This document shows, one piece after another, positions 1,546 to 28,517 of a DNA stretch of 37,434 nt (positions are counted from its first letter, which is position 1; every line of letters begins with the position of its first letter). Source of the DNA: Candidatus Margulisiibacteriota bacterium (GTDB lineage Bacteria > Margulisbacteria > Termititenacia > Termititenacales > Termititenacaceae); NCBI GenBank assembly GCA_031267055.1, contig JAIRZV010000016.1:1-37434 (forward strand). The letters are read 5' to 3'. A program made the translations under genes and the position numbers. A model generated the notes under the pieces. That model searched no databases. It saw only the letters and a program-made list of their open reading frames with translations, and was not told the origin of the DNA.

Positions 1546-1565
1546 GTTTGCAAAGGGGTTTTGGT

Positions 1566-1979: not shown

Positions 1980-2886
1980 CCAGCAATTGCTTACACAGGT
2001 AGCACAATTCTATGGCTTTCCAGACATCGAGTTTGTGAACAAAGATTTTTATGTGGTGGAAGTCCTAAAAATGTTATCCACCATTCAGCCGGATGTCTGC
2101 GATTTTATTTTTTCCGGCGGCACCTGTCTGTCCAAGGCATACAATTTGATAGAGCGTATGTCCGAAGATGTGGACATAAAAGTTCGTTTGCAAAATAACA
2201 CTATGAGCGCCGGAGTTCTAAGAAAAACCCTGAGCAAAACTAAGCATCAGATAGAGATTGAATTAAAGAAAATGTTTCCGCGGTTTTCCGAAACTGATAT
2301 TTCCGCTGACCATGGCAACAGGCATATTGCCTTTAATATTACTTATCCTGCTGTCCGAGAAACGCCAGTGTTAAGGAACGGCATCAAACTTGAGCTTACT
2401 CAGTCCACGATTAGGCTTGTGCCGATAGCCAAGCCGATCAGTTCTTTGATTACCACAGCCCGGAAAAATCACCCTGATATTGCGGAGTTCTTATGCGTTG
2501 ATCCCTTGGAAACGCTTGCGGAAAAAATTGTCGCCCTACTGAGAAGGATTTGCGCCAGACTGGAGACCGGCAAGCAAAAATTCGATCCAGCGCTTATCCG
2601 CCATGTTTACGATATTCAGGTTATCTACTCTAAAATTGATACTAAAAAACTTGTGCCATTGGCAAGAGAGATAATCCAGCAAGACGCAGAATCTTATCGG
2701 ACCTGGCATCCAAAATGGTCTGCCGATCCGGCCGTTAACACCAAACTTGCTTTGGCGGAATTGAAACAGAATGAATATGCGGATATGTTTGAGAAATATA
2801 CTAAGGTGATGATTTATGCCAGGAAAATACCGAAATATAGCGAAGCATTAAAAACGGTTGCCGAAATTGCGGAAAATATATTTTAA
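1972..2886 (+). CDS. AbiEii/AbiGii-type nucleotidyltransferase toxin
   Basis: This 304-residue protein belongs to the NTase_AbiEii family. The nucleotidyltransferase core is visible as FSGGTCLSKAYNL (GGT at residues 49-51, lysine 55), followed by MSEDVDIKV (metal-binding aspartates D66 and D68). Downstream is the family block DPLETLAEKIVALLRR near residue 180 and then RHVYDIQVIY, both typical of AbiEii proteins. Members are toxins that act as nucleotidyltransferases, in studied cases on tRNA, and can protect against phage by abortive infection or stabilise DNA. The ATG lies inside the antitoxin 3' end, and GGAGGAG just upstream supplies the ribosome site, so the two proteins are translationally coupled. 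The core motifs and length look intact, so the toxin is probably active. Confidence 0.88.
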   Translation: MPDQQLLTQVAQFYGFPDIEFVNKDFYVVEVLKMLSTIQPDVCDFIFSGGTCLSKAYNLIERMSEDVDIKVRLQNNTMSAGVLRKTLSKTKHQIEIELKKMFPRFSETDISADHGNRHIAFNITYPAVRETPVLRNGIKLELTQSTIRLVPIAKPISSLITTARKNHPDIAEFLCVDPLETLAEKIVALLRRICARLETGKQKFDPALIRHVYDIQVIYSKIDTKKLVPLAREIIQQDAESYRTWHPKWSADPAVNTKLALAELKQNEYADMFEKYTKVMIYARKIPKYSEALKTVAEIAENIF

Positions 2887-2995: not shown

Positions 2996-3085
2996 TATTT
3001 AAAATAATGTGGGACGATTTCAGGTTACTTACGATATATTAGTAAGAACTAAAGCCTGAAACTCGAAAATGTTGGGAGTAAGGTA
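2996..3085 (+). promoter_or_regulatory. Structured 5' leader of the giant-gene cluster
   Basis: A weak -10-like TAAAAT lies at 3000-3005 without a clear -35. A long imperfect hairpin follows: CGATTTCAGG at 3015-3024 pairs with CCTGAAA(C)TCG at 3055-3065 with one bulge, enclosing CTTAC at 3028-3032 paired with GTAAG at 3042-3046. The arm TTACTTAC (3025-3032) is also nearly complementary to GTAAGGTAA at 3078-3086, which spans the region between the Shine-Dalgarno GGGAG (3074-3078) and the ATG. The leader could therefore switch between exposing and hiding the ribosome site. It does not match a riboswitch class that I recognise. Confidence 0.4.
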
Positions 3086-11635: not shown

Positions 11636-14600
11636 ATGGCTGACTAAAATACTTTCGGATGAAGAGTTATTAAGAAGAGTCAGAATGGGCGGCGGATCGA
11701 AACCGCCGAGAAAACCCTGGCCGCCTCTGGCTAAAGCAGGGATTGCCGTTGCTGGACTTGGCGCAGTTGGTGTTGCTGGCTATCAATGCGAAGCAGCCAA
11801 AGAATCCAGAAGAAGCGAAGTAGAGCCTGCTGAGGCAACGGAAGCCTTAGAACAGGAAACGGCCGAAAGCGAAACGACATCTATCCATGACGAAGGAATG
11901 AAAATTTTAAACGAGGCTTTGGAAAAAACTGACTTGAAAAACGAGGAAAATCTGAACATCAAAATTCAGACCACGCTTGATAATGTTATGCGGGGTGATA
12001 ACGGCAACAAATTAAAAGTGACGCTTGGCGACGCGATATTTATTCAAGATCCCAGCCAGCCACAAAATGGCATTGTTTCGGAAAGTGTTTATTTCCTGCG
12101 CATCGCCGCGGCTAAGCCTAGCGAGGAAACCCAGAAGTTTTTTGACGGGCTGCTGCGTGGCTTTGATCAAATGACTGCGCTGGGTGGCGGCCACGGCGTG
12201 TTCCCGGCTTGGACGGTAAAGATCGAGAACGACCGTTTGGTTTTGAATACAGACAAAGACGCTGGCGCGCATAATTCTGCCGCTGACTCCGATCATGATC
12301 TGATCATGGCTTTGCTGGTAGCCGTGCAAAATGTAAAAAACAATGATTGGGAGGATAGTGATTACGCCGAGCGGCTGGAAAAACTGATCGATGGTCTGGC
12401 TAAAGAATATATTGAGGTGGCTGGCCGCTGGGCGCTGAAGCCTTCAGAAGATTGGTACGGCGATGAGCAGGGCGAATGGTTTTATCTGGACTACTTTTCC
12501 CCAGAAACCTGTTTTGCGCTGGCGCAATATTTAGCTGCCAAAAATGATCCGCGCGCGGCGTTTTGGCAAAAGTGCGGAGAGGACAGTCTGGAAATATATG
12601 CCGCTTGTCTGGAGCAGATCGGCTGGGTGCCTGAGCAGGTTTCCCTTGGCATTGATGAGGATGGCAATCTGCTGGTCGAAGCGCGGCAAGGCCATGGTTT
12701 GCAGGGTTGGGACGGCATTCGCGCGCCAAGCCGTATTGCTGCCGGTCTGCCTTATTATATTAAGGCCAATAAATTGACCGAAGAACAAAAAGCGATTTTT
12801 ACAGAATATCTAAATAAATGGAATGATCCTGCCGGCAAAGCTTCCGGCATGGCTCCGGCTTTGACTGCGGCGGCTTATCTGCCTCTGGCTGTGCAGCTGG
12901 GCGCTGTTGATTTGGCCGCCGAGATGCTGTCCGTGCTGGCCAAAGAAAATACCGCCGCGGTTTATGCCAGTCAAGATCAGTATTACGAAACCTCGTTGAT
13001 TTTAAAAGCGTTGGTTGATGTCAGCGCGCCTTATGATCTAGACAAGTATTCTCGGATGGGCGACTATACTCCGGCTTGGCGGTTAGAAGACATTTGCGAT
13101 CCACAGGCTGGTTATTATGGCCAAGTTGGTGTTTTGAGCGCTTTTGGCGCGCTGGGTTTTGTGATCAACCCCGATCCGCCCAGCCAGTTTAAGATTTATA
13201 AAGGCATTAACACCCATATTATTACCGCCGAGAGTATGCTTTCTGGTTTGGCTGACGCAATGGCCGCGGGTGATATGGCTAAATTTCAGGCCATCTTTAA
13301 TATGATCGATGCGCTGTGCGTAGAAAATTATAACAAGGGCAAAGCCAAAAGATTATTTTTGCCGAGAGTGGTGACCTTGAAGCCGCAGGATAGCGCGCGT
13401 AAATTGTCTTTAGACAATTTTACTATACCCGGAGGCAATGACGGCAAAGCTTCCAGCAGCGGCGCGGATTTAATGCTGCTGGCTTTATTGATCAAGGCTC
13501 TGGACATGGATTTTAATACAGGATTGATGAACGCTCCAAAGTTTTTGTACGATGCTCAGAACCGGATCAGGAATTTTATCGCCAGATACGCCAGCGAGAT
13601 GGTCAAGAGCAGTGGCGATGTTTATCCTTATACGGATGAGACTGGCGCAACGCGGCTGCTATTGACACCAGGTGGTTTGATTGGCAGTAATGAGTCACCA
13701 AGAGATCAGAGCATTATATACGAGTATCATACTGATTATGTACAAAATCTGGATATTTTGCGCTGCATCGTTCAATATTTTAGGCCGGGATTTGGCATTG
13801 GTAATAGTAAAGGTTCCTCAGAGTTGTATACAATTTTTACCGCACTGTTGTCCGATACGGAAGAATTGAAAAAAAGGATTGACGCGAAATTTTCTGACGC
13901 CGTTAAATATCCGCAAGGGATGCCGCAAACGGTGTACATCTACCTGCCCCACGCGTCTGGGCAGCCGGTGCGAGTGCTGGATGCCAATGAATTTAGCGCG
14001 GAGATGAATCCAAATAAGAAAGAGGAATATATTTCATTGAATTACCCGGGCTCCAATGGCTATGATTACGGTTACTATTATACGCAAATCATGCAAGCCG
14101 CCAGCTCCGGCAAACAACCAGCGATAGATTTTAAGCAAACGAAAGCGCAGGTCAATGTGAATGAGGACTATATCTATGGCAAGACCGGCATCGGCGTGGT
14201 GGCCAATCATGTTGCACGTCATCATGGCGTGGCCGGTATATCTCCGTTGCATGATCGGAGATTGCAAAATGATTCGGAAATCGGCCGCGGCCGCCTGCAG
14301 ACAGCGGATTCTAAAGCATATGATAGGACGCCTTACCCGTTTGCTGTGTCAATTCCTATACTTTTTTTCAATATTGATATTATTGGCGACTGGGAAAAAG
14401 TTTTCAGCGACCGGCTGCGCGCGGCGCTCAGGAGAATGAGCGAAGCGGATTATGCGGCGCAGGGCGAACAAATGTACACCAATACTTTGCTGGCTTATGC
14501 CGGATTGCCCACTGCGAAAATGGTCAAAAAGGGCATGACTACCGAGCGCGTTGCCATTACCGCTATACGGGTAGATGACTTTCTGGAATCAGTTCTGGGT

Positions 14601-16295
14601 TTTTCCGAAGAATTTGTCCGTAAAGGTCTTTATATTGAAATTTCTGCCGTTGATGTGGTTTCTTATTACTTGCTGCAGATTAGCGCGATGTTCGGTTATG
14701 ACAAGCCGGAATTGCTGCATCGTATCAATATGCTGCTGGCGGAGATCGAGAGACAGGCGCAGACTAAAGGAAAAGAAGTGGATTTAGACAATCCTATTGT
14801 CAAGGCGCTGAAGCTCCAGCAGCTTTTGCTGTGGAACAATATGTCGCCGCTGCAAAGAGACCGGCTTGATCTTGCCGATCTGGAGCATTACGGGTTAAGG
14901 CCTCTCTATAATTATTTTAAAGACCAACCCGCAACGCAAAACGATATCATTAAGCTGACAGAATTTTCTTGGGATGGCATTGAACTGGATGTGTCCGATG
15001 CAATAGTAGACCCTGTTACAGGAGAAAAAGAGTATACGTTGACGCCGGATAAACTCAAAAAGATGCGCATACCGCAGCAGTTGAAAGATGTGGTGTTTAG
15101 TGAAATAGCGCGGAGAGATATTTTAGAAAAGATTAAAAAGTATCCATTGCCTGTTCCGCTGGAAAGAGAGAAAGAGCGTGAAGAAAACCTTAGAGAAGAG
15201 CTTTTTGATTATATAGATAATTTGCCGAAAGAGTATAAGGTGCCCGGTTTGATCCCGATCCTTTTCTCGGAAGGCGAGCTTGATGAAAATGACGAACGCA
15301 AACCTGACCCGATCCCGCGCGCCATCAAGGAAGAATTTATCCGTACATATCTGGATGAAATCGACTACACTAAAGCCGGCGCTTCTGGAAAGTACAACAC
15401 TTTGTGGCAGGCGTATACTTTGCTTCTTTATAAAGAAGTCAGCAAGGAGATCAGCGATTGGGTAAAGAAAGTAAAAGCCGACGAGAGTGATCAGCCGAAT
15501 GCAAAGACGCTGCTGTTGATAAAACAAAAATTAGCAAATCTGACCGCTATGCTGAATATTATGCATCTGACCGGCCTGCCACTGGAGCAGCAGAGCACTG
15601 ACCCGCTGATCGAACAATTCGCTAAGGCCAGGGAAATTAATGATAAAGCGTTCGACGATTTTGTGGGCACATATGAGGAACAAGGAATCTTGGCGGATAT
15701 ATTCAACAATATCTACTGGCTAGGCAACGATCTAGAACAGCTCAAAGATGCTAAAGAAGACGGAAGCTTGTACAGACAGAGAGGGTTTGATTTATTGAAT
15801 GTCTATACAACAAATAATGCGGATTGGGAAAATAGTGATAAATTGAACGGCGTGTATATGCGTTTGCATCTGCAGGAAAGTGCTAGAAACAAGGAGCTTA
15901 CTCCAGAGCAAATTACAGAAAATTTAAATAAACTGCGGCAGCGGCAAAGAGCAGCCAATGCCTATGGCAATAAACGGGAATATGCTTACTTTTTGCAGAC
16001 GGAAGCGTTTGTATATTCACAAGTGGGTTATAACCCGCAGCCGGATGAAAGGAATGAAAATCCAGAAAACGGGTATAGTAGATATAGGGATATAGTAACT
16101 GACGAAATTCTTAAACAGTTCGATTATATATTGGCTGAGGTGAAAAATATGCAAATGGATGTAGAGTCTATAAATCCGCCACCGCTTTCTCCGGTTTCGG
16201 CAGATGATTCACAGGAAAATAACCCGACGGATACCCATGAAGATCGTACGGAAGAGACTAATATTGACGATGCAAGGAATATATTTGGTTTTTAA
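11628..16295 (+). CDS. Membrane-anchored protein with tandem GH8-like glycosidase domains
   Basis: This gene encodes 1555 residues from ATG 11628, chosen for GGAGGT at 11615-11620. The N-terminus is a charged, Gly/Pro-rich stretch (MGGGSKPPRKPWPP), then a hydrophobic segment at about residues 35-53 ending at C54, so it is probably exported and anchored. Residues ~148-400 match glycoside hydrolase family 8, an (alpha/alpha)6 barrel: VSES with E152 at the proton-donor position, ADSDHDLIMALL (D220, D222, D224) at the DxDxDIAxALL signature, DYFSPETCFAL, and GWDGIRAPSRIA (D362) at the YDAxRxPWRIA block. A second, degenerate copy follows from ~526: ITAES (E535), GADLMLLALL (D614), EYHTDYVQNLDIL, and YDYGYYY (D813). 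GH8 enzymes cut beta-1,4-linked glucans, chitosan or xylan; BcsZ is the cellulose-operon member. The remainder (~1000-1555) is helical and unrecognised. The next gene, with TPR-like and barrel regions, mirrors the bcsZ-bcsC order. Confidence 0.85.
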   Translation: MNKWLTKILSDEELLRRVRMGGGSKPPRKPWPPLAKAGIAVAGLGAVGVAGYQCEAAKESRRSEVEPAEATEALEQETAESETTSIHDEGMKILNEALEKTDLKNEENLNIKIQTTLDNVMRGDNGNKLKVTLGDAIFIQDPSQPQNGIVSESVYFLRIAAAKPSEETQKFFDGLLRGFDQMTALGGGHGVFPAWTVKIENDRLVLNTDKDAGAHNSAADSDHDLIMALLVAVQNVKNNDWEDSDYAERLEKLIDGLAKEYIEVAGRWALKPSEDWYGDEQGEWFYLDYFSPETCFALAQYLAAKNDPRAAFWQKCGEDSLEIYAACLEQIGWVPEQVSLGIDEDGNLLVEARQGHGLQGWDGIRAPSRIAAGLPYYIKANKLTEEQKAIFTEYLNKWNDPAGKASGMAPALTAAAYLPLAVQLGAVDLAAEMLSVLAKENTAAVYASQDQYYETSLILKALVDVSAPYDLDKYSRMGDYTPAWRLEDICDPQAGYYGQVGVLSAFGALGFVINPDPPSQFKIYKGINTHIITAESMLSGLADAMAAGDMAKFQAIFNMIDALCVENYNKGKAKRLFLPRVVTLKPQDSARKLSLDNFTIPGGNDGKASSSGADLMLLALLIKALDMDFNTGLMNAPKFLYDAQNRIRNFIARYASEMVKSSGDVYPYTDETGATRLLLTPGGLIGSNESPRDQSIIYEYHTDYVQNLDILRCIVQYFRPGFGIGNSKGSSELYTIFTALLSDTEELKKRIDAKFSDAVKYPQGMPQTVYIYLPHASGQPVRVLDANEFSAEMNPNKKEEYISLNYPGSNGYDYGYYYTQIMQAASSGKQPAIDFKQTKAQVNVNEDYIYGKTGIGVVANHVARHHGVAGISPLHDRRLQNDSEIGRGRLQTADSKAYDRTPYPFAVSIPILFFNIDIIGDWEKVFSDRLRAALRRMSEADYAAQGEQMYTNTLLAYAGLPTAKMVKKGMTTERVAITAIRVDDFLESVLGFSEEFVRKGLYIEISAVDVVSYYLLQISAMFGYDKPELLHRINMLLAEIERQAQTKGKEVDLDNPIVKALKLQQLLLWNNMSPLQRDRLDLADLEHYGLRPLYNYFKDQPATQNDIIKLTEFSWDGIELDVSDAIVDPVTGEKEYTLTPDKLKKMRIPQQLKDVVFSEIARRDILEKIKKYPLPVPLEREKEREENLREELFDYIDNLPKEYKVPGLIPILFSEGELDENDERKPDPIPRAIKEEFIRTYLDEIDYTKAGASGKYNTLWQAYTLLLYKEVSKEISDWVKKVKADESDQPNAKTLLLIKQKLANLTAMLNIMHLTGLPLEQQSTDPLIEQFAKAREINDKAFDDFVGTYEEQGILADIFNNIYWLGNDLEQLKDAKEDGSLYRQRGFDLLNVYTTNNADWENSDKLNGVYMRLHLQESARNKELTPEQITENLNKLRQRQRAANAYGNKREYAYFLQTEAFVYSQVGYNPQPDERNENPENGYSRYRDIVTDEILKQFDYILAEVKNMQMDVESINPPPLSPVSADDSQENNPTDTHEDRTEETNIDDARNIFGF
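12069..14105 (+). repeat. Internal duplication of the GH8-like core within the coding sequence
   Basis: Unit 1 covers about 12069-12770 and unit 2 about 13203-14105. The same four landmarks occur in the same order in both: the Glu helix, the ADL/DxD helix followed by ALL, the aromatic D/E-Y block, and the WDGI/YDYG helix. Similarity is at protein level only, so the duplication is old. The second unit keeps only one of the clustered aspartates. Confidence 0.55.
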
Positions 16296-16320
16296 GAGAG
16301 CCTAAATTTGGAGGAAAGTT

Positions 16321-19300
16321 ATGACAGATGTAGTGACCGGCGTTAATAACAATTTAAACTGGCCGGAAATAATAACCAATCGGCAAACTCCTCATATAGG
16401 TGGTTTAAATGAGGATGAGTGGAAAAATTTGTTGGGGTTTACTACTTATGTGCAAGAAGATCACTATGATCCTTATATTCAAAATATTTATGATGAAATA
16501 ACTTTTCTAGAGCAAAATTATTGGCAAGATGAAAAGTATCGCAGTAGATTAACCCAAGATTTGGCAGAAATAAATCAAATTATCTCTGAGGCTACTAAAC
16601 CAAAAACGTTTAATTATAGTCCCAGACAATGCCTGTCGTTTTGTTATGCGGCGATCAGTTTGAATATTGTTCTTGGTGACAAGACTGGCAATACGACTTA
16701 TTACAATAATGCGCGCGAATTACTGGCGCGTTTTGATGTAAGACATGGAAATTATGTATTTCGCGCTCGGAATGAGGAGGTAACGCTTGCTTCCCATACT
16801 TTTGATCAAAGTTTATGGTTTGTGTCGCTGGTCGGCCAGTTGATCGAGCGTGGTGTCATTACGCCAGATACAGAAAAGACAAATAATATAGTTGGTCTTC
16901 TTGGTAATACAATAAAAACTATCGGGAATAATTATATTAATGAAAAAAATGAAGAAAAGAAAGCCGAATTATATATAAGAGGAAGATATTTTACTGCGGC
17001 TAGCCTTTATTTAGATGCCAAGCTGGAAAGAACAGAAGCGACCAGAGCCGCAAAGTATAAGGAAATATATGACAATTTGAAGAAGGATGGTACTTCCTCT
17101 CCTTTGTTACTTGTTTTGAGATTAACTGTATTAAATAGTTTGCTTTCCACTTCTCTCGATGCTGATGTTGTGAGGGATTATGGTGTAGATATGGCAGAAC
17201 TGGAACGATTTTTTAATTGGACTTTACTGCCTTCCGCAAATGCTATTAAACAAGCCCCAAATACTCCACGTGAGCGTGCCATAAAAGAAACAGACAAATC
17301 GTATTTGCAGGCTAAATATAATAGTTATGTGCAATACTATATGTCCCGCGCCAATTACTTGCGCACCGCAGCGCAGCAAGCTATAAAACAAATTAAATCT
17401 GCTGCGAATATCAATACAGCTATCAATAACGCCGCCACCGCTGTAAAGAATTTCAATGATTTTCTCTATGTCAGGGTTACTAATGATTTAGCGGACAGAG
17501 AAAATTCTTATTTTAAGGATTTTCTGACCTCAGCCAAACAAGAAGTGGAATTTCTCGAGTTAGATATTGTTTTGACCAGAGCGGAGCGCGGCGATACCAG
17601 TGTTAATTTAAATAGCTTAATGGGTCGTATTAACAGCCTAACGGCCAGCACTCCTGGAAACAACGCCCGCCGTTATTATTTCCGGTCGCGTTTGTTCAGT
17701 TTGCAGATCAAGCGCGAACCGAATCCAGAAAGAAAAAATATAATTCGCCGCAACGCTCTTGCTTTTATTATCGGTGGCCAAACCAGCGATGGAAAACCTA
17801 TTGCAGATAATGTGCTGACGGCTGATTATAATTTGAATAATATTTATAGAACTAACAATGCCGCTGACAATAAAAACTTGCAGCTCAACGCCCTCTGCGA
17901 AGCGGCGGAATTGCTTATGGATTTAGATAGAAAGAGTGAAGCCAAAGACTACTATGCGATTTTGGAAAGGCCTGCGGTATCCAATTTGACAGCTTTATTG
18001 AGTGTTGACCCGAGAACTAATCGATATGCTTTTCAAAGCGCGGATTTGAATGCGACATCCGCCCGAGTGCTGTTTTTGGCTGCCAGCTTAAAAGACAACA
18101 AAACTCTGTCAGAGGCCATTGCTAACCGGTTGATAGATGTGTTTGGTCCGGCGGGAAGTCCTAAAGACGAAACTATATTCAATGGCGCGCTGGCTCTTAG
18201 GGAAGGCTTCCGTTTTGACTATGTTTTAGATAATTTGAAAGCGCTGAAAAAAGCAGGCCAATGGGCGGAAGGTTTGGCTAAGATAGATGAAGAAGCGGCT
18301 TTGTTTGCACAGAACGCGGATAACCAGCGCGAGCGCGCTTTCCAATTAGCGGAGTGTAATAATCTGGCTTACCTTTACGACAATGGCAGCAAGCCGGATT
18401 TGAGCAATTTGGCGCAATACACTAATCCGGCCAGCCGGCAGAGACTGCATTATTTAAGAATGGCACAGTTGGCCAGCGACAAGGCTACACCCAGTGGTAA
18501 AGACCTGTCCGGTATTTTGCGAGAGATTGGCGATTTGGTGCGCTGGGATAAAAACTCCCAGAAACTGACTTTCACTTTGTCGAGCGAGTATGATGTTAGA
18601 CTAGATACTGTAAATAAGGATACACAAAAATCGCCGAAAGAATATAACGACGAGTTTGAGTTTGCGGTAATCGCTGAATATTTTGAGACGCTGAATAGTA
18701 TTTTGAATAGTGAAGAAAAAACCGGCCTGCGTCCAGCTGATCCACAATCCGCCGCAGAATTAACCGCCGCGTTTAGAGATTATTTTGATAGGCAGAAAGC
18801 GCGGAATGTCAACAGTCCTTCAGAACAAGATTTGCGCTTTTTGTTCTTCGCCGCGTTGCTCCTTGACGGCGATCAGTCAAAACCGAAAGACATTTACGAG
18901 AAAATTATCCACTGTTATCCCTTGCCAGTGCCGCGGGGCTATGCAGTGTCTGTCAATGGAGTGTCGCAAACTTATTATTACAATTCCGACGCCAAGCGTG
19001 CTTACTGGGAAGCGCAGGCCGGTCTGGTTAATTATTATGCTAAACAAAAGAATTTTGCCGCGCAGAAAACGGCATTTGATAGGATCGAAACCGAATACAA
19101 AAACCGCATTAATCCGCAAAACGTTGCTGGTTATGCCGCCGATGCCGCCTATATCAAAAATCTTTATTTCAACGCGCTGTTGATGCAGTGCCTGTCCGAT
19201 CTGGAGCAAGAAAACCGGAATACAGCCGTTGAACATTTGGGAGCATGGAAAACCCTGCTGGCAGACCCCGGCATTGCCGGACAATTAACTCCGGCGAAAC

Positions 19301-22300
19301 GTGAGCAGCATAAATATACTTTGATCGAAATGTGGACCCGCGCGGCCATGCTGCTGGACACACAGGAAGATCAGCCGCAGGACGCGCTCGACGAACTGCG
19401 CAAAATTTACAACGACAAAGAGTACAATTTATCCAGCGCGCAAAACGCCGCCGCCCGGCTCTGCGCCGACATTATTCGCGGCAATATTGAGGGACTGATT
19501 GCCGCAGACAGGCAGAGAACTACCGGTCCGCGCCTGACCTTTACTCCTGACGATACTTTTAACCCTGACAATATTTCTAAAAATTATTTTACAAAGAACT
19601 TAACGGTTGGCGCTTATACAGACCTGCCGCTTCGTTACGAAAAACAGTTGTTTATTTCTTCACTGCTCAATCGAGCCAAGCTTGGCGATCAACAGGCGGT
19701 TGAGACTTTGCAGGCCTTGCTTGCGCCGGCGCGCGCCGAGCAGACAACTGCTGAAGTTGACAAGGATTTCTTCTCGCAGATCGAGCCGCGCCTGGAGCTG
19801 GATCAAGCCTGGAATTCTCTGAATGATAAATATCAGGGTTATCGGCCTGCGGGTATCAATGCCGAAAATATTGCCAAAAAATATCTTGCTTCTCCATATT
19901 CTGCTGGCACACACGATGAGGCGAAAGACCTGCTCCGTCTGGCCTGGTCGAAAGGCGCTAATCCACAATGGGCTGTCAACGGGACGACTATTACGATCGA
20001 CAATAGGCCAGTACCGATAAAAGGCTATGCAGACCTGGCCGGATTTACCAATAAGCAGGCTCGCTCTGCCGCGGAAAATCTCCTGACGCTTTACGGTTAT
20101 ACTACGGCGACACGCGATGAGAACAAACTGGCCGGATTGATTAAGAATATTCTAACCCCGGGGGTGGCCGACGAAGAATTGTGCTGCAAGGCCCAGTTGG
20201 CCGAAGCCGAACAATACCTGCGGCTCAGCGGCGATCCGGACGCTGTAAAAAATTTACCGGCAGTCCTGTCAGCCTTGGGCTTTCTGTCCGGCGCCAGGAC
20301 CGACCGATACATTCGTCCGGCTATCGAGAAAGCTTTGGAAACCACTTTGGATGTTCTGGGTGATATTTTTACTGAAAATGCCGAAAGCCGTACTTCGGAC
20401 GATTATTATACTTATTGCAATCAGCGTATCCGCTATGTGCTTTTGCAATATGAAAATGCCCCGCAAAACGCTTATGACGCGCTGGAAAAACTGAGCAAGC
20501 CGCTGAATGAAGGTGGGCTGGGCTTGTCCGGCGACAGCCTTACCGGAAAACTCCTGCTGGATACAATTACTGCCAATAGGAATACGTTGCTTCTAGAAAA
20601 CGCGGATAAAATAAATGGCGCCGCAGAAAAGCTGAATTTTGTGCCACAGCCACAGTCGGATCAGGATCAGAAAAAAATTCTTGATGAGTACCTGCATATT
20701 TATGACGAAGATTGCGCCACAAAATTCCAAAAACAATTGCTGATCGGTATCTTGCTGCTTTTGGCCGCTCAGACCCGGATAAGCGGGGCGGAGCCTGCGG
20801 AGTCCGGCGATGATGACGCGGCGGAGATGGCTGTGGAAATACTCCTGGGTCTGCGTCCGAATGATGATCCGCGTAAATTGACTTCCGCAGAACGCTTGGC
20901 GGAAACCGTAGAGTTTATGGGGCAGGAATATTTTGACCTGCTTGAACCGCGCCTGCGTCTGGATTATGCCTGGGCTTTGCTGAAGCCGAATAACCCATCA
21001 GCGGCGGCTTTGAATATTACGGAGCGGATCGCCAGAACAATTATTGAACAGGGTGAGAAAGTCACGGCCAAGATAATTTCTGAAGCGGAAGACCTGCTCC
21101 GTCTGGCCTGGGCTAAGTCTAAAGATAGTGCAGATGGCAAGCCTAAGCCGCAATGGGCTGTCGACGGCAAGAATATTGGCACGGATGACCAGCCGGTGTT
21201 CATAAAAGGTTATGCCGCACTGATCGCTGAACCAACGGATTTTACCGACAAACGAGTGAACGGCGCGTTTGAAAATCTGATCTCACTGTACGGCTACAAT
21301 CCTCTGACGCGCGATGCTGAATCAAATAAAGGCAAATTGGCCGAACTGGTTAAACAATTACAAGAAACTTATGATAGCGCCACGTTCTCTCCACAGCTCA
21401 AACCGGCCGTCAAAAAACTGTACATCAAAGCTCTGCTGGCGCAGGCGGAGACTTATTACCGAGATAAAAATATGATCGACATGGCTAGGGCGCTGGATCT
21501 TTTGTTAGCGAAACCGACTGAGTCTACCGGTGATTACAGCGGCCTGTTATCTGGAGAAATCGGTATTCCAGAAAAAACCGAGGAGTATTATGCCTACTGC
21601 GAGCAGCGCGTCCGTCTGGTTTTGCAACAAGCGCAAGACAACAATAAATCCAAATCGGCGGTGGAGACCGGCAATGATCTGGAAATTTTGCGCGGAGAAT
21701 TAAATCTGATCAGTCCGGAATGGCTCCCGACCAACTTGACCGAAAAATTATTGAATTCTTTTATTACGGTCAACAAGCCGAACATCACACCTCAAGAGAC
21801 CAAGGATGTTATGGCTAATCTGGGTTTTGACATCACAGCAAGCCGCGAGTATTTCGAGAAAACCTGCCGGACCGATTATCAACGCCGCTTATTCATCGGT
21901 ATCTTGTGCAAGCTGGCTGATTCGACCTCAGACGCGCCGAACACCCTTACCCCTGATCAACGCGCGAAGCTTCTTTCGGACGGCGATAACGACATTTATG
22001 AACAGATCGTGGAAGATTTGTTGCTGGACAGCCAAAACCAATACAGGCCCACGACTTTTGCGCAGGATCTTCTGAGTCCGGAATACGCGGCGACGATCCT
22101 GCCGCGTCTGCGTCTGGGCATGGCTTGGCGCGGACTGACCGGTAATGATAATGAATCAGCCGACCAAGTAATTTCCAAAGACTGGTTGGCTGTGGCTGAT
22201 GGAGTGGTCAGTGTTGTTGATGCTTTGTGCGCTGTAAATTTGACGCTGAGAAAAGAACTGCAGAACGAAGTCGATTCTTTGCGTTATTTCGTAATGATCA

Positions 22301-25300
22301 AGAATAAAGATGAAAATAAAGATACACATATAAAGAAAATCAATGAGGCTTTGACTGATTATTACTTGCCGCAAATCGCCGACAATCCGGCAAACATGGA
22401 TGCCAGGACTTTGGTGCTAAGCGCCTATGCCTATGATTTGCAAGAATACTCCGTAGCGTTGAGTTATATCGACGAGAATATTCGATATACTGGCGAAAAT
22501 ATTCGACGTGATGCCGCGCTCGACCCGATTCTTTTCTCTACAGTAGTGGACTGCTGGAGCAAGCAAGAGCCAAAGACGGTAATACCAGAGGTTAGAGTGC
22601 GACAATACATCACTGCTATTCAAACCCAGCCGGAACTTTACGCCAGCGACAAAGCCAAAACCGCGCTGGCCAATATTATCTGTGCTTATGTTTCTCAACA
22701 GTTGGAGGACGGCAATCTGGACGATATCAGTTGGCTGAAAAATATTATTTTGCCGTCAGCCGAACATTCGCCGGGGACGCGTACATATATTGAAGCTAGG
22801 ATCGGTAAGCTCAAAGTTGATGCGTTGATAAAAGAAGGCAGATATGAAGAAGCGCTCAAGCTCTTGCAAGGAACGGATAAAAAGAGTGGAGTTCCGCTAA
22901 GCGGAACGGCTGAAAATGGCGTGGTATATACGCCGGTTAGTTTTAGTTTAAATAGAGAGAATGCGACAACCGGAATTAGCGCGATACTTACAGCAGATAC
23001 TGGTCCAGCTGCGGCGGTTGAAAGTGATGCAAAATCCGGAATTTTGCAAAAATTAGATAGCTTGGAGACAGAATATAATGGCAAGCTGGATTCGCGGCTT
23101 ATTGTTTCCCTGCGCAACGATGTGCGGCGGCAGCAGGCGCAGATCAAAGAGGCGCAGGGTTTTTACACGGAGGCTGTGGCTCGTTTAGACGAAATTGATT
23201 TGAGTTTTATCGATGACGAAAAAGAAAAAACTCAGGCGCAGTTTTATGACGACTTACAGCACGCGCGTATTTTTATTAAGCAGGAAAAATTTGCTGATGC
23301 GCAGAGCATACTAGAAACTCTCCCTGCTCTTGCTGATTCCGCAGAGCTCAAACCCGATGAGCGATGTCTGATTTATTTCAATCTGTTGGACATCGCCCTG
23401 CAAAACCCAGAAGTCGCCTTGGGTTATTTGGCCAAATTAGCAGAATTGTTGTCCGCCGAAAACAATGACGCGCCGGAAAAAAATATTAAACCGGAAACTG
23501 TTTTACTTTATGACTTACAGCGTGTGGCCGCGCGCAAATTGTTGCAAGGACAAATGCCCCCGGACGAAAATATGCCCACGCTGGAAGATGTGGAGCAAAA
23601 AATAAACGCTCTGCCTGCGGGCTACAAACAACAGACTTATAGAAACTTGCTGGCCGAGCTGCAAGCCTACGAACATTTAGAGAGCCGGAGTTATTTACAG
23701 ACAGGCAACGGCGCGATTATTGCGGAATTTGCGTTGCCGCAAACTTTTGAGCCGGCGGACGGTCTGGATTCCGAGGAACACGCGCTGAACATGCGGAAGA
23801 TTTATCTCGATAGCCAGATTACCGCCGGCGGAGCCGCCGCGGCAAACGCTTTGACCAAGATGGATGCGGATCTGGAAAGCGTTGAGACAGCACTCAAAAC
23901 AACAAAAAGCGAAGGTCTGCAAATTGTTCTGCAAAAATATGAAACTGAGTTGCTTTTCCTGAAGTACAGTTTTTTAAGAACTCATTCCCAATATGACGCC
24001 AGCGACAAAAAAATAGAAGGCCGATTGGCTGAAATTAATGAACGGCTGGACAAATCCATAAAAGCCCTGAAAGATTTGGCGCCGTATTCTGCTGTTAATG
24101 TTGAGGAACGGCGGGAAAATCTGCGCGAGTCTTCCAGCGACACGCCGCCCTATGATCTTTTGGAAACGCAGATCAAAGAAGATCTGGATTATTTTTATAA
24201 AGAGAATGGGAAGGATATTCAGCCGGGACAGTTGGAATTCTGGAAATTCAAGAAAAAACTCGACGATCTGTTGAATAATTTTGTCTTGCTGGGCGATAGT
24301 CCGCAGGCCAGCGCCGAGGAAATTATCTTGGCGGTCGACAAACTCTATGATCTACGGCTTGGTCTGGTGGAGTCTGGCGCGGTCTCTGGCGGTCAGCTTC
24401 TGCCCAAGATTGAGGCTTTCCGCGCGCAAATGCCGGCAGGTTTTGTTTTTACCGGTGAGGAAAAGGGCTACGGTTATTACTTGATCTTGAACCTGTTGGA
24501 AAAGGATCTGGCCAAATTCAGCCAAATTGCCAAAAAAGTTTATGACGCGGGTTATTTAAGTAAAAATGAACCGAACGATTATTATGCGCAGTCCAGCGTT
24601 CTGTTGATCGACTTGATAAACACCCAGCTTAAAAACAATGCTGAGTTTAACACTTATATTGGAGCAAACACCCTACCCCAAATTAATTATAAGCCGGATG
24701 GCGACAATCTGGTTACCAAATACGGTGATATGAGTTTGACCACAAATCTAAAGAAAAAAATCGCTTTAGTCGAGGACGAAAATTCTCTAGCCGAGGACGA
24801 AAATTCTCTCAATCTGCCGGCGGAGTTTAAGGCATGGGAGAAAGTGTATAAAAAACGGATAAGCGGCGCGTTGTCCGGAAGCTATAAATACACCGCCGGC
24901 AAGATGTTGCTTGATTATCTCGGCGCCTTGATCCGGCAGCGTGATGAAGGGCGGCCTGTTTCCGGATTGACTACTGTGAATAAAAAGATCAAGTTGTTGT
25001 TTGATTTCCTGAACACTCTGCCGTCGGACAATTTGTTTTCCGACTCGCATTATTATCAGCTCAAAATAGCCGCTTTGAAAATACAATACGCTTCGTCTTT
25101 GTTGTCTAAGGCCGTCGACGCTCGGGACTGGAATACCCCGGCTGCCGGACAGCCCAAACCGCGAAAGATAAGCGATACTTTGCCGGACTATCTGGGCCAA
25201 GCGCGGGATATTCTCGAGGAGCGGCTGGAACACGTCGCGTCGGACAGTGCGGAGCATAAACTGTGCTCGTATTTGCTGTCCGTGCTGAACGGTGAGGACC

Positions 25301-26622
25301 AAGAATTGCCAGAGATTTCCGGTTTGCCGGAAGAAGCTAAATATTTGTATATAGAATTAACTTCTCGTCTGGCCTCCGCACTGCTGGCTCAGCAGCAGTC
25401 CGGTATTCAGCGTTTGGGCGGTGTGGAAAAAAACAAAATCCTCTCACTGACCGACACTATAAAATCCTGGGAACCTGATCATGCCGGGTTGCCGTATCTA
25501 GAACAAAACATAAAAAATGCGACGCAAAAATTGTCCCTTAGTCTGCTGGACAGGCTTGACTTAACCTCCAGCGAAAACACTTCCGTTTGGTGTTCTATTG
25601 ATAATCAGAATGTCCAGCTGGTTAAGAACGGACTTTTCGGCAGTTTGGCGTCTAAGACTGAAAAAATAAATTTAAGTAAAGAGGTTCCTATTATCTGGAC
25701 ACCGTGGAATTTCCTGAACCTGCGGGCGACTCCGGGCGTAGATCTGCAGTGGCTTAAGTCGACGGACAGTATTTCTCAACAAGGCCTATACGAAGGTCTT
25801 TTGTTTACAAAACAAGAGACACATTCATCTGAAACCCCGTTTTTAGAACCGATAATTGTGCCGAAAATTGGCCTTGGTTTTGACCTTATTGCGCCGCAGG
25901 GTTGGCTGCTTGGTTTTTGGCAGCCTTCACTTAGCGGAGATGTTAACTATAGCTATTCGCCGCAACAGCGCTCGCCTTACAATGCCAGTCGTTTTGGTGA
26001 AAAAAATTATTGGGATCATCACTGGTCTTTCGATGTGGCATTCAACAATAAGTTTGCTGTAAACAAATTTTTCGGTTTTGAAATTAATAATGCGCTGCAC
26101 TGGAGCCTGGATAATGGCATGTTGGCTACGGAATCCTACTATTATAAAGAAGAAAAAACGCTGTCCGGCGCTTTCCAATACAATCCGAGGGGACGGGTGA
26201 ATTTCAACTTTGGTGAACTAAGTACGTATTTAGGCGGCGGTTTGTTATTTGAACAGGCCAACAATCTCAATAGCGGCTGGCAATGGGCTGACCGTTTCGG
26301 CTGGGCGGCTGAATTGGGCTGGTCTTATTATAGTCCGCGCTGGTCTGGGAGTGTGGCTGGCAATTTTAGTATACTTGGCAAAGATATTAACACCGGACTG
26401 AATTTCCGTTTTACCCGGCCAAATTGGCCGACCCTGTTGCTGGGCCTTAATTATACGCTGCTGCCCAAAAGGATAACTAACAGCAGTCAGGATATTACTT
26501 ATGATTCTGGTAAGCATACGCTGACGAACACTACAGACACGCGCTCTTCGCAGAATAATCTCAGCGTGTCTCTGAGCGTGGAAATCCCGCTTTCGCCATT
26601 TGACAAACATAACAAAAAATAA
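16321..26622 (+). CDS. Giant 3433-aa TPR-like protein with C-terminal outer-membrane beta-barrel
   Basis: ATG 16321 follows GGAGG at 16310-16314 by six bases; an in-frame TAA at 16303-16305 excludes a longer start. Most of the protein is an alpha-solenoid rich in TPR-like helix pairs, for example EGRYEEALKLL, YTEAVARLDEI and EKFADAQSILETL in the region near residues 2170-2350. Residues ~90-190 contain HTFDQSLWFVSLVGQLIERG, which could be part of an (alpha/alpha) toroid. Residues ~1104-1960 hold two full and one partial ~370-residue repeats. From about residue 3090 to the end the sequence becomes alternating, aromatic-rich beta strands (WSFDVAFNNKFAV, GRVNFNFGEL, SVAGNFSILG, LSVSLSVEIPLSPF), as in a 14-16-strand outer-membrane barrel; the last strand ends in Phe with a short DKHNKK tail. 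BcsC, PgaA and AlgK/AlgE-type polysaccharide exporters combine TPRs with a barrel, but they are much shorter. No signal peptide is visible, which is odd for a barrel protein. Confidence 0.88.
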   Translation: MTDVVTGVNNNLNWPEIITNRQTPHIGGLNEDEWKNLLGFTTYVQEDHYDPYIQNIYDEITFLEQNYWQDEKYRSRLTQDLAEINQIISEATKPKTFNYSPRQCLSFCYAAISLNIVLGDKTGNTTYYNNARELLARFDVRHGNYVFRARNEEVTLASHTFDQSLWFVSLVGQLIERGVITPDTEKTNNIVGLLGNTIKTIGNNYINEKNEEKKAELYIRGRYFTAASLYLDAKLERTEATRAAKYKEIYDNLKKDGTSSPLLLVLRLTVLNSLLSTSLDADVVRDYGVDMAELERFFNWTLLPSANAIKQAPNTPRERAIKETDKSYLQAKYNSYVQYYMSRANYLRTAAQQAIKQIKSAANINTAINNAATAVKNFNDFLYVRVTNDLADRENSYFKDFLTSAKQEVEFLELDIVLTRAERGDTSVNLNSLMGRINSLTASTPGNNARRYYFRSRLFSLQIKREPNPERKNIIRRNALAFIIGGQTSDGKPIADNVLTADYNLNNIYRTNNAADNKNLQLNALCEAAELLMDLDRKSEAKDYYAILERPAVSNLTALLSVDPRTNRYAFQSADLNATSARVLFLAASLKDNKTLSEAIANRLIDVFGPAGSPKDETIFNGALALREGFRFDYVLDNLKALKKAGQWAEGLAKIDEEAALFAQNADNQRERAFQLAECNNLAYLYDNGSKPDLSNLAQYTNPASRQRLHYLRMAQLASDKATPSGKDLSGILREIGDLVRWDKNSQKLTFTLSSEYDVRLDTVNKDTQKSPKEYNDEFEFAVIAEYFETLNSILNSEEKTGLRPADPQSAAELTAAFRDYFDRQKARNVNSPSEQDLRFLFFAALLLDGDQSKPKDIYEKIIHCYPLPVPRGYAVSVNGVSQTYYYNSDAKRAYWEAQAGLVNYYAKQKNFAAQKTAFDRIETEYKNRINPQNVAGYAADAAYIKNLYFNALLMQCLSDLEQENRNTAVEHLGAWKTLLADPGIAGQLTPAKREQHKYTLIEMWTRAAMLLDTQEDQPQDALDELRKIYNDKEYNLSSAQNAAARLCADIIRGNIEGLIAADRQRTTGPRLTFTPDDTFNPDNISKNYFTKNLTVGAYTDLPLRYEKQLFISSLLNRAKLGDQQAVETLQALLAPARAEQTTAEVDKDFFSQIEPRLELDQAWNSLNDKYQGYRPAGINAENIAKKYLASPYSAGTHDEAKDLLRLAWSKGANPQWAVNGTTITIDNRPVPIKGYADLAGFTNKQARSAAENLLTLYGYTTATRDENKLAGLIKNILTPGVADEELCCKAQLAEAEQYLRLSGDPDAVKNLPAVLSALGFLSGARTDRYIRPAIEKALETTLDVLGDIFTENAESRTSDDYYTYCNQRIRYVLLQYENAPQNAYDALEKLSKPLNEGGLGLSGDSLTGKLLLDTITANRNTLLLENADKINGAAEKLNFVPQPQSDQDQKKILDEYLHIYDEDCATKFQKQLLIGILLLLAAQTRISGAEPAESGDDDAAEMAVEILLGLRPNDDPRKLTSAERLAETVEFMGQEYFDLLEPRLRLDYAWALLKPNNPSAAALNITERIARTIIEQGEKVTAKIISEAEDLLRLAWAKSKDSADGKPKPQWAVDGKNIGTDDQPVFIKGYAALIAEPTDFTDKRVNGAFENLISLYGYNPLTRDAESNKGKLAELVKQLQETYDSATFSPQLKPAVKKLYIKALLAQAETYYRDKNMIDMARALDLLLAKPTESTGDYSGLLSGEIGIPEKTEEYYAYCEQRVRLVLQQAQDNNKSKSAVETGNDLEILRGELNLISPEWLPTNLTEKLLNSFITVNKPNITPQETKDVMANLGFDITASREYFEKTCRTDYQRRLFIGILCKLADSTSDAPNTLTPDQRAKLLSDGDNDIYEQIVEDLLLDSQNQYRPTTFAQDLLSPEYAATILPRLRLGMAWRGLTGNDNESADQVISKDWLAVADGVVSVVDALCAVNLTLRKELQNEVDSLRYFVMIKNKDENKDTHIKKINEALTDYYLPQIADNPANMDARTLVLSAYAYDLQEYSVALSYIDENIRYTGENIRRDAALDPILFSTVVDCWSKQEPKTVIPEVRVRQYITAIQTQPELYASDKAKTALANIICAYVSQQLEDGNLDDISWLKNIILPSAEHSPGTRTYIEARIGKLKVDALIKEGRYEEALKLLQGTDKKSGVPLSGTAENGVVYTPVSFSLNRENATTGISAILTADTGPAAAVESDAKSGILQKLDSLETEYNGKLDSRLIVSLRNDVRRQQAQIKEAQGFYTEAVARLDEIDLSFIDDEKEKTQAQFYDDLQHARIFIKQEKFADAQSILETLPALADSAELKPDERCLIYFNLLDIALQNPEVALGYLAKLAELLSAENNDAPEKNIKPETVLLYDLQRVAARKLLQGQMPPDENMPTLEDVEQKINALPAGYKQQTYRNLLAELQAYEHLESRSYLQTGNGAIIAEFALPQTFEPADGLDSEEHALNMRKIYLDSQITAGGAAAANALTKMDADLESVETALKTTKSEGLQIVLQKYETELLFLKYSFLRTHSQYDASDKKIEGRLAEINERLDKSIKALKDLAPYSAVNVEERRENLRESSSDTPPYDLLETQIKEDLDYFYKENGKDIQPGQLEFWKFKKKLDDLLNNFVLLGDSPQASAEEIILAVDKLYDLRLGLVESGAVSGGQLLPKIEAFRAQMPAGFVFTGEEKGYGYYLILNLLEKDLAKFSQIAKKVYDAGYLSKNEPNDYYAQSSVLLIDLINTQLKNNAEFNTYIGANTLPQINYKPDGDNLVTKYGDMSLTTNLKKKIALVEDENSLAEDENSLNLPAEFKAWEKVYKKRISGALSGSYKYTAGKMLLDYLGALIRQRDEGRPVSGLTTVNKKIKLLFDFLNTLPSDNLFSDSHYYQLKIAALKIQYASSLLSKAVDARDWNTPAAGQPKPRKISDTLPDYLGQARDILEERLEHVASDSAEHKLCSYLLSVLNGEDQELPEISGLPEEAKYLYIELTSRLASALLAQQQSGIQRLGGVEKNKILSLTDTIKSWEPDHAGLPYLEQNIKNATQKLSLSLLDRLDLTSSENTSVWCSIDNQNVQLVKNGLFGSLASKTEKINLSKEVPIIWTPWNFLNLRATPGVDLQWLKSTDSISQQGLYEGLLFTKQETHSSETPFLEPIIVPKIGLGFDLIAPQGWLLGFWQPSLSGDVNYSYSPQQRSPYNASRFGEKNYWDHHWSFDVAFNNKFAVNKFFGFEINNALHWSLDNGMLATESYYYKEEKTLSGAFQYNPRGRVNFNFGELSTYLGGGLLFEQANNLNSGWQWADRFGWAAELGWSYYSPRWSGSVAGNFSILGKDINTGLNFRFTRPNWPTLLLGLNYTLLPKRITNSSQDITYDSGKHTLTNTTDTRSSQNNLSVSLSVEIPLSPFDKHNKK
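19630..22200 (+). repeat. Two and a third in-frame ~1.1-kb protein-level repeats in the giant solenoid gene
   Basis: Unit A is about 19630-20719, unit B 20720-21869, and partial unit C 21870-22200. Units start with (Q/R)xLFI-type helices such as KQLFISSLL, KQLLIGILL and RRLFIGILC. They then share IEPRLELDQAW / LEPRLRLDYAW / LPRLRLGMAW. A and B also share EAxDLLRLAWxK, PQWAV(N/D)G, IKGYA, LYGY and a Tyr-rich YYxYCxQRxR helix. This is duplication within the gene, diverged at DNA level. Confidence 0.8.
24771..24809 (+). repeat. Perfect 21-bp-period tandem duplication (EDENSL twice)
   Basis: CGAGGACGAAAATTCTCT occurs at 24771-24788 and again at 24792-24809, 21 bases apart, adding seven codons in frame. 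Perfect identity at DNA level points to a recent slippage event in a linker of the giant solenoid protein. Confidence 0.9.
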
Positions 26623-26636
26623 AAGAGGTGAGGACA

Positions 26637-28517
26637 ATGTTTAACAAACTTATAAACGACGAGCAAAACTACTTGACCGGCTCCGGCGGCGGCAATCCGC
26701 TAAATTTGCTGAGGTTGGGGTTGGTCAGTCTATTTGGTTCGTTATTTTTATTCGGCTGTCTAAATCCTTTTACGGAAGAGGTGACTAAAGAGACGGAATT
26801 TATCAAGTCGGCGCCGGATCCTGTTCCGGATCATATCGATCAACTGATCCCTTACGGCGATCTTACGGCCAAACTCGCGGCAACCTCCGGCGATACGGTC
26901 GAAGTGACTGTGCGTAGCAGCAGAAAAGAAGACTGGAGCACACAGCAAAAAGAGCTGGCCGGCCTAAAAATTTTGCTGGACAAATACTATAAGAATTCGT
27001 CGAATGCTGAGGAAATTAAATTTACTTTTGAGGGATTGACCGGAGAAAACAAAAAATTTGATTTTAAGCGGTTGATCGTCACACTGCTGGACGCTAAAAC
27101 CAAAAATTACGACCATCTGGGCAATGAGAACCTTGCAGAATACGCTGAGTATATGCGTTCGGCGATTTTTGTGCCTTTGTACAGGATGAATCTGGATCCG
27201 TCGTACAATGAACCGTATGCTTGGGACAATCCGCGGACTTACGGCGTCAGCGTGGATCTGGATAAACAAGAAGTGACACTCGACCTGTCTCAGCGTGATG
27301 TGCTGATTCATAATTTGATGCACCGCGATCCGGATACCAAACTTACGAATATTACTATTTCCGAAATTGGGGATCGCTTCGTTAAATTTTCTGTGCGTGA
27401 CACTAGAGGTCTGCCGCCGGAACAAAAATGGTCGTATCTGGGGCTGGACCTCAAAAACCAATTCGGTATAGACGGTCAGATAATTCGAGCGGACGGCGGT
27501 GTGTCTTTTGCCTTGAAAAACACTCCAGCGGATGTTCAATACCGCGTTGTGCTGGAAAACAGCGCCAAAGAAAAGCTGATATTTTACCCGGAGGAGCATC
27601 CGGGAATTAAAGATAGCAGCTTGATCCCGCTAAGCTACTTCCATGAGGATTTTTTTGCGGCGGAGCTTGGCGCTAAGGCAAATTTTACCGAAGGCGCGTT
27701 GCAGGTGAATTTTGCCGGCAAGAATTCCCGGGTTACGGTTACGGATAAATCTGAGACAAAAACCGCGGTCGACCTGCGCCAAAATTATACTGGACAACAA
27801 AATGATTATTTGAAGCTGACTATCGCCGCTGGCACGGAATTTGACTGGCAGAAATTCCTGTTAAATGTGCGACCGACTTTAAGCTGTATCGACGCTTCCG
27901 GTGTGGAAAAATATTACTCGCTGGACAAACAGCTCTCTTATACCACAGACCAATTGGCCATATTTGCCGTTGAAGACACGGCGCGTGGCTGCTGGAATAT
28001 AAATATCCCGCTCTCCTGCGTCGATACTGGAAATGGTTTGCCGGCTGCCGCGCTTACTGTCACCGGCATCTCTCTGGCCGCTACCGACGAAAATTTTACT
28101 GAGGCGTATAATATTCTGGCGATCGAGTTGCGCGACGATGGCACGGCGCCGGGACATATTATTCCATTCCACGCGGTGGATAGAAATACGCCGTTCATCG
28201 CCGCCGGTATTTCTCTGTGCTCGGAGTCCGCGGCTATGCCGGATCTGGAGTTGCGGGATTTTGTTTTGCAGGCTTCCGCGGCTGAGGGAAAAATCGCGCT
28301 GGATTATTTGCGGCAGGAAAAATCTCTGGTCAGCAAAGGAGAGGCGGTGTCGCTGGTATTTTACACCGGAGATTTTGCCGATAAGGAAGAAAAAGATTTT
28401 CATTCAGACCCAGAGGGTCTGGAGACCGCTTACAGAGTTAAAGCCGATTGGCCTATAGTCGATACGTCTATTGCACAACAACTGCTAGACGAACAGACAG
28501 AACAGGAAGGAGAATAG
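26637..28517 (+). CDS. Lipoprotein-like envelope protein, paralogue A (beta-sandwich, CBM-like)
   Basis: This gene encodes 626 residues. I chose ATG 26637 because GAGGTG at 26625-26630 is a good ribosome site six bases upstream; a GTG at 26628 overlaps that site. The N-terminus has about 24 residues with the motif GSGGGNPLN, then a hydrophobic run (LLRLGLVSLFGSLFLFGC) ending in a lipobox-like LFG-C41, so it is probably a lipoprotein despite the long leader. The mature part is beta-rich with no catalytic motif that I recognise. A block NINIPLSC...LTVTGISL...LAIEL resembles the 'IPLS...l..I.f...f.IdDI' end of galactose-binding-like carbohydrate-binding modules. It is homologous to the next gene: both share LDKYY, LTLLD/VTLLD, RVTV-D and the FLLNVRP / FLSKVNP region. 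Function is unknown; polysaccharide binding at the envelope is an inference. Confidence 0.85.
   Translation: MFNKLINDEQNYLTGSGGGNPLNLLRLGLVSLFGSLFLFGCLNPFTEEVTKETEFIKSAPDPVPDHIDQLIPYGDLTAKLAATSGDTVEVTVRSSRKEDWSTQQKELAGLKILLDKYYKNSSNAEEIKFTFEGLTGENKKFDFKRLIVTLLDAKTKNYDHLGNENLAEYAEYMRSAIFVPLYRMNLDPSYNEPYAWDNPRTYGVSVDLDKQEVTLDLSQRDVLIHNLMHRDPDTKLTNITISEIGDRFVKFSVRDTRGLPPEQKWSYLGLDLKNQFGIDGQIIRADGGVSFALKNTPADVQYRVVLENSAKEKLIFYPEEHPGIKDSSLIPLSYFHEDFFAAELGAKANFTEGALQVNFAGKNSRVTVTDKSETKTAVDLRQNYTGQQNDYLKLTIAAGTEFDWQKFLLNVRPTLSCIDASGVEKYYSLDKQLSYTTDQLAIFAVEDTARGCWNINIPLSCVDTGNGLPAAALTVTGISLAATDENFTEAYNILAIELRDDGTAPGHIIPFHAVDRNTPFIAAGISLCSESAAMPDLELRDFVLQASAAEGKIALDYLRQEKSLVSKGEAVSLVFYTGDFADKEEKDFHSDPEGLETAYRVKADWPIVDTSIAQQLLDEQTEQEGE

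Follow-up and report, generated by a model that had tools for sequence, protein, structure and literature searches.

How a protein that ends in a predicted outer-membrane barrel could reach that membrane without a signal peptide is the question raised by P0001, a 3433-residue protein encoded in the draft genome of a termite-gut member of the Margulisiibacteriota. In bacteria that possess BamA, the expected path of an outer-membrane barrel across the inner membrane is Sec, with a signal peptide. The window, which is the whole stretch of 37,434 nucleotides analysed here (contig JAIRZV010000016.1), belongs to a genome of the same genus as Candidatus Termititenax aidoneus and T. persephonae. This genome is a fragmented draft of 174 contigs and is 74% complete. 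The window carries one uninterrupted series of plus-strand genes, which includes P0004, P0005, P0001, P0006, P0007, and P0008 in that order:

Upstream part of the series, + strand: DapL-like aminotransferase, which adjoins dapF in relatives
Between the aminotransferase and P0004, + strand: AbiEii-type pair
3086..11635, + strand: P0004, 2849-residue membrane protein with GT2-like motifs (motif-level assignment only)
11628..16295, + strand: P0005, with an N-terminal membrane- or lipoprotein-type segment, a GH8 domain (E 3e-6), and about 1000 further residues
16306..16320, + strand: spacer with a Shine-Dalgarno-like GGAGG; the nearest upstream in-frame stop is at 16303-16305
16321..26622, + strand: P0001, 3433 residues, predicted alpha-solenoid and C-terminal outer-membrane-type barrel, without a signal peptide
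16321..16464, + strand: polar N-terminal 48 residues of P0001 where a signal peptide would be expected, modelled largely at pLDDT under 50
16456..25518, + strand: about 3000 residues resembling an alpha-helical solenoid, modelled at residues 46-500 and 3003-3068, the remainder judged from sequence
25531..26592, + strand: predicted 14-stranded outer-membrane-type barrel, residues 3071-3424 (AlphaFold2, Foldseek, strand alternation, and OMP_b-brl in a homologue)
26637..28517, + strand: P0006, predicted lipoprotein
28520..30388, + strand: P0007, predicted lipoprotein
30449..37333, + strand: P0008, 2294-residue secreted protein with carboxypeptidase-regulatory-like domains and an ordinary signal peptide, used as a control

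The polar N-terminus of P0001 and its counterparts

The P0001 open reading frame is intact, and its nearest in-frame stop starts 18 nt before the ATG, leaving 15 bases between the two. The first-pass annotation, which took this stop to exclude a longer N-terminus, had given the spacing as 16 bases. It had also described residues 1-50 as hydrophilic and lacking a signal peptide, and the measurements agree: in the first 60 residues, the longest run without charged, polar-amide, His, or Pro residues is at most 8, and the maximum 12-residue Kyte-Doolittle mean is 0.23. An AlphaFold2 model of the N-terminal region gives low confidence to the first 48 residues, which are followed by helical hairpins. 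Searches of P0001 against Pfam and NCBIfam returned no match. Weak matches in the analysis, such as those to Sigma70_r1_1, DUF5361, and Phage_sheath_1C, were judged to be due to chance.

Relatives found by sequence come from Candidatus Termititenax aidoneus (whose genome is 93% complete), T. persephonae, and one Margulisiibacteriota MAG. The P0001 homologues comprise 3007 aa in T. aidoneus and 3051 aa in T. persephonae, plus those of two further relatives, G006 (of which the C-terminal end alone is visible) and G007. The viral contigs searched contained no relative. In other families (genomes G014, G016, G021, and G050), a signal-less protein is encoded immediately after a P5-type gene, i.e., a gene of the P0005 type, and measures 1867, 1947, about 2800, and over 1257 residues, respectively. 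No sequence homology could be detected between P0001 and the proteins of G014, G016, and G021, nor any resemblance between those of G014 and G016; these proteins therefore correspond to P0001 only in position and architecture. The TPR family passes the Pfam cut-off in the G016 (2e-11) and G050 (1.9e-6) counterparts.

Nine starts were compared: those of the window, T. aidoneus (two copies), T. persephonae, G007, and the counterparts in G014, G016, G021, and G050. The homologues in T. aidoneus, its second copy (contig C97), T. persephonae, and G007 all have a polar N-terminus, and so do the four counterparts in other families. Across the nine members, the first 60 residues contain at most 3-9 consecutive residues that are not charged, amide, His, or Pro, while the equivalent runs in exported controls from the same genomes are 11-20 in all but one; the exception, P8 of G007, scores 6 owing to an internal lysine and proline, yet has a hydropathy maximum of 2.2. 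The least clear-cut N-terminus is that of the G050 counterpart, with a run of 9, a mean of 1.67, and no positive start. Copies beyond the first occur at T. aidoneus G001 contig C97 (L015), where the P5-P1 pair, or P1, is repeated, and probably also at G007 C20 and C51 (L018 and L062); the system is thus duplicated in some genomes, namely T. aidoneus and probably G007.

The absence of a signal peptide is genuine and conserved. A fragmented draft such as this genome invites suspicion of an assembly, frameshift, or start-site artefact, but this explanation is extremely improbable: the nine loci, several of them from nearly complete genomes, are alike in having an in-frame stop 9-24 nt upstream of the start (9/9) and a preceding gene that ends within about 70 nt. 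The same stops bear out the annotation's exclusion of a missed N-terminal extension, and they make its suggestion that the start of the protein is supplied otherwise very unlikely, as does the frame of P0001 relative to the previous gene, which differs between the window and T. persephonae. Fusion to P0005, or recoding between the two genes, was rejected because this relative frame is not conserved. Tat export of P0001 was also rejected, as the protein has no RR motif with a hydrophobic segment after it.

The barrel could be an ordinary outer-membrane one that uses Sec by means of a cryptic or unusual signal, located in the polar N-terminus or internally. This is the least demanding route and a reasonable, if less than even, possibility: BamA is present, and P5 and the lipoproteins have recognisable signals, several of which follow an unusually long polar n-region, so that atypical signals do occur in this lineage. 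It has to contend, however, with the lack in all nine N-termini of any run of at least 10 uncharged, non-amide, non-His, non-Pro residues in the first 60, and with a P0001 sequence that, along its 3433 residues, attains a hydropathy of 1.5 over 19 residues in just two segments (none in the homologues).

Predicted barrel and helical solenoid

The final ~345 residues were originally read as an outer-membrane barrel, and two observations were named as grounds for dismissing the finding: a predicted structure that is not a closed barrel, or homologues with a normal signal peptide. Neither was made. AlphaFold2, run on residues 3003-3433 together with three relatives (four sequences in total), returns a barrel of 14 long strands at residues 3071-3424, with a mean pLDDT of 75 and a pTM of 0.65. 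When this model was compared with the PDB by Foldseek, the top 50 matches were all outer-membrane barrels, including TodX/FadL (3e-9), FapF (2e-6), EspP (3e-6), and PelB (9h80; 6e-6), as well as Pla/OmpT and porins; TM-scores are modest, at about 0.4, and the exact barrel fold should therefore not be over-read. The in/out hydrophobic alternation of the predicted strands exceeds that of shuffled sequences in 4/4 homologues (z 3.7-5.2; 0/2000 shuffles), and one P0001 homologue matches Pfam OMP_b-brl (E 1.1e-3). A C-terminal strand ending in Phe is typical of BAM substrates. The G014 and G016 counterparts end in such a strand, and P0001 has a 9-residue tail beyond its last strand. BamA-type Omp85 proteins are present in these genomes, where BamA has a normal signal peptide. 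A sequence search of the P0001 C-terminal region against the PDB gave nothing significant, and Pfam BCSC_C (PF05420) has no match in P0001 or anywhere in 11 genomes. As a prediction, the barrel is well supported.

The region ahead of the barrel appears to be a helical solenoid, and between its modelled ends the sequence suggests that it is also alpha-helical. Pfam TPR has no match in P0001 itself, and Foldseek of the N-terminal model gave no match below E 0.001, only generic helical solenoids. If straight, 3000 residues at 34 residues per repeat (about 88 repeats), with a rise per repeat of 7.8 Angstrom (PMC5638805), would extend for about 69 nm. This is far longer than the usual periplasm, and the solenoid would therefore have to coil, fold back, or run along the wall.

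A further TPR protein (TPR_19 E 3e-15) adjoins the P0001 counterpart in G014 (L060:422-3691, - strand). Its C-terminus resembles an Omp85 barrel by eye, and it apparently has no signal peptide.

The operon and its likeness to known exporters

P0001 is the third gene in a conserved order, which runs from a membrane protein with motifs like those of a processive GT2 through a GH8 hydrolase to the helical-repeat and barrel protein. The helical-repeat-plus-barrel protein shares an operon with the other two in the window and in relatives, and the order P0004-P0005-P0001-lipoprotein-lipoprotein is kept at the loci of P0001 homologues wherever these are readable. Just upstream of P0004, an AbiEii match (type IV toxin-antitoxin, E 1e-25) lies at window positions 1548-2886, preceded by a 143-residue ORF; the AbiEii protein was not seen at the corresponding place in T. 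aidoneus or T. persephonae.

P0005 matches Pfam GH8 above the gathering score (E 3e-6), and the family is also found in the P5 proteins of G014, G016, and G050. P5 proteins are homologous across families, and the Glu of SE, the D-x-D signature, and the Asp of DxxR are invariant across nine sequences. The predicted assignment of P0005 to GH8, catalytic residues included, is thus well supported. The P5 proteins of the window, T. aidoneus, and T. persephonae have a polar stretch of 25-40 residues and, after it, a hydrophobic segment of the lipoprotein or anchor type. The P5 proteins of G014 and G016 have an RR-type N-terminal segment (L060:9319-13215 and L081:5580-9860), which resembles a Tat signal (MTRREALVVGAGLTGLIAG; PTRRSILKAAGIGLVLTAAG). 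TatC was found in Termititenacaceae only, among the genomes checked, and not in those of G014 or G016. In G008 C20 (L057/L058), a single 5577-residue ORF without a signal peptide has two GH8 domains that align identically to P0005, and it adjoins P0004- and P0005-like genes. Stand-alone GH8-like proteins of about 530-545 residues are encoded in G005 and G006 (L061:76-1707 and L064:5988-7583); these retain the catalytic motifs, have no signal peptide, and begin with M[SC][DE]EIKTI.AYQTYAARITGG.

The signals of P5 proteins bear on whether P0001 leaves the cytoplasm at all. Its barrel-like domain could be a non-membrane beta structure, with the solenoid acting as a scaffold for the synthase, and the absence of a signal peptide in nine members, together with P5-like or GH8 proteins in G050 and G008 that also lack signals, would fit such a role. 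Strand alternation, the membrane-barrel matches from Foldseek, the OMP_b-brl match, and the strands with a C-terminal Phe in G014 and G016 argue against it, as do the lipoprotein- or anchor-type segments of P5 in the window and its relatives, which put that protein outside the cytoplasm. The chief way to dissolve the puzzle would be a cytoplasmic, non-membrane role for P0001, but such a role is unlikely.

P0004 has the motifs DKD (residues 2150-2152), VED (2366-2368), and QxxRW (2405-2409), and its last 600 residues include hydrophobic segments. In the P0004 group (four relatives, 23-36% identity), DKD, S-x-VED, and QxxRW are all kept in the same order, and the aspartate of VED lies 37 residues from the Q; the corresponding spacing in BcsA is much like this. 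Hydrophobic segments fall between DxD and VED, and hence the topology of P0004 is not that of a classic GT2. Homology between the window's P0004 and G008 is solid. A second group (G014, G016, and G050) keeps DADY-like, ESEDI, and RW-x-RGN motifs, and its G014 and G050 members open with hydrophobic segments, after which comes a DEP/NEP...VAD stretch resembling the start of a GT2 domain. When the profiles of the two groups were compared, no significant mutual homology emerged, and the only recognisable match of the second-group profile in the PDB is BcsA (5ej1), aligned at the RW with a non-significant E of 9.5. P0004 itself has no match to a glycosyltransferase family in Pfam and no significant PDB match by sequence or profile. 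From these motifs, P0004 is a putative glycosyltransferase.

The genes after P0001 encode the two predicted lipoproteins and P0008, whose final domain is FlgD_ig/CHU_C-like (E 0.01-0.04) and recalls a C-terminal sorting domain. P0004 (3086), P0005 (11628), P0006 (26637), P0007 (28520), and homologues in L011, L012, L014, and L063 open alike, in the manner of M-x(3-6)-K-[IL]-I-x-[DE], and a polar stretch rich in Gly and Pro follows in most. The hydrophobic lipoprotein-type segment comes only at residues 25-50 in P0005-P0007, and P0004 has none. The shared opening may be a lineage-specific leader.

Like BcsC, P0001 is predicted to consist of a helical-repeat scaffold followed by a C-terminal barrel of roughly 350-380 residues (PMC5638805, for the layout of BcsC), and its gene has those of a BcsZ-type GH8 hydrolase and a membrane protein with GT2-like motifs as neighbours. 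These neighbours make the comparison with BcsC in the first-pass annotation apt. Unlike BcsC, which has a signal peptide of 20-30 residues (PMC5638805), P0001 has none; its solenoid of about 3000 residues is three to four times longer than the 750-900 residues of BcsC; and its barrel has 14 predicted strands rather than the 16 of BcsC, PgaA, and PelB. Because it has neither a signal peptide nor a Pfam BCSC_C match, P0001 is not placed in the BcsC family. PelB, the exporter of Pel exopolysaccharide, has a TPR scaffold and a 16-strand barrel (PMC12141448), and the predicted helical scaffold and C-terminal barrel of P0001 follow a similar plan. However, PelB belongs to a different operon and keeps 22 apolar N-terminal residues, of which P0001 has no equivalent; the PelB N-terminus may be an uncleaved transmembrane helix (PMC12141448). 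The best structural matches to the P0001 barrel, FadL and TodX, have the same number of strands (14), but they share no sequence with P0001 and lack a solenoid. FadL and TodX take up small hydrophobic substrates rather than exporting polymers, and have normal signal peptides.

Possible export routes and proposed function

A GT2-like synthase, a GH8 hydrolase, and a helical-repeat-barrel protein in one operon correspond to the plan of cellulose-type export, which leads us to read P0001 as an exporter. It is probably the BcsC-like exporter, giant and strongly diverged and without a signal peptide, of an exopolysaccharide system that depends on a synthase, and we have moderate confidence that it works like BcsC. 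This reading has to reckon with the lack of a BCSC_C or glycosyltransferase-family match, the non-classic topology of P0004 and the missing homology between its two groups, a barrel of 14 rather than 16 predicted strands, and a solenoid that far exceeds the width of a periplasm. According to this model, P0004 would polymerise a beta-linked glucan-like chain and extrude it through the inner membrane, P0005 would trim the chain once in the periplasm, and the barrel would receive it by way of the P0001 solenoid, with P0006 and P0007 perhaps serving as accessory lipoproteins. We infer polymer export, its substrate, and the outer-membrane location of P0001; counting against that location is the missing signal peptide itself.

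For the P0001 barrel to lie in the outer membrane, there must be some route that requires no recognisable signal peptide. Of the three options originally offered for this protein (a non-canonical signal, a start of the protein that comes from elsewhere, or another role for the barrel-like region), the second is very unlikely and the third unlikely, and the barrel has gained support. We propose tentatively that Margulisiibacteriota, in which BamA is present, carry very large outer-membrane barrels across the inner membrane by a signal-peptide-independent route. The TPR-Omp85 protein of G014 is possibly a further cargo, and a dedicated export partner for P0001, perhaps within the operon, is possible. 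Mycomembrane proteins such as CpnT reach their outer membrane by type VII secretion and use no Sec signal peptide, and P0001 resembles them as a candidate outer-membrane protein of this kind. CpnT is named as an ESX-5 substrate (PMC8092274); its setting, however, is the actinobacterial mycomembrane, and that of P0001 an outer membrane with BamA.

The flagellar-type export apparatus could offer another way across the inner membrane. The N-terminal 48 residues of P0001, which are polar and modelled as disordered, would act as a type-III-like signal, and BAM would then insert the barrel. FliP was found in 6/6 genomes checked and FlhA in 9/11. However, FlhA was found neither in the window's genome nor in that of T. 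aidoneus, both of which are drafts that carry a P0001 gene, and the N-terminus is as conserved as the rest of the protein (26% identity among relatives vs. 27-28% elsewhere), unlike a freely drifting signal. To our knowledge, no outer-membrane barrel is delivered by a flagellar-type apparatus, and we regard this route as improbable.

A signal-less barrel found across the phylum, in the company of partners with export signals, is a clear exception, through which signal-independent export becomes directly testable. For Termititenax, the analysis identifies a probable, greatly enlarged operon for the export of a cellulose-type polymer. These bacteria reportedly attach to spirochaetes on termite-gut protists, and the exported polymer would therefore be a candidate for their attachment matrix.
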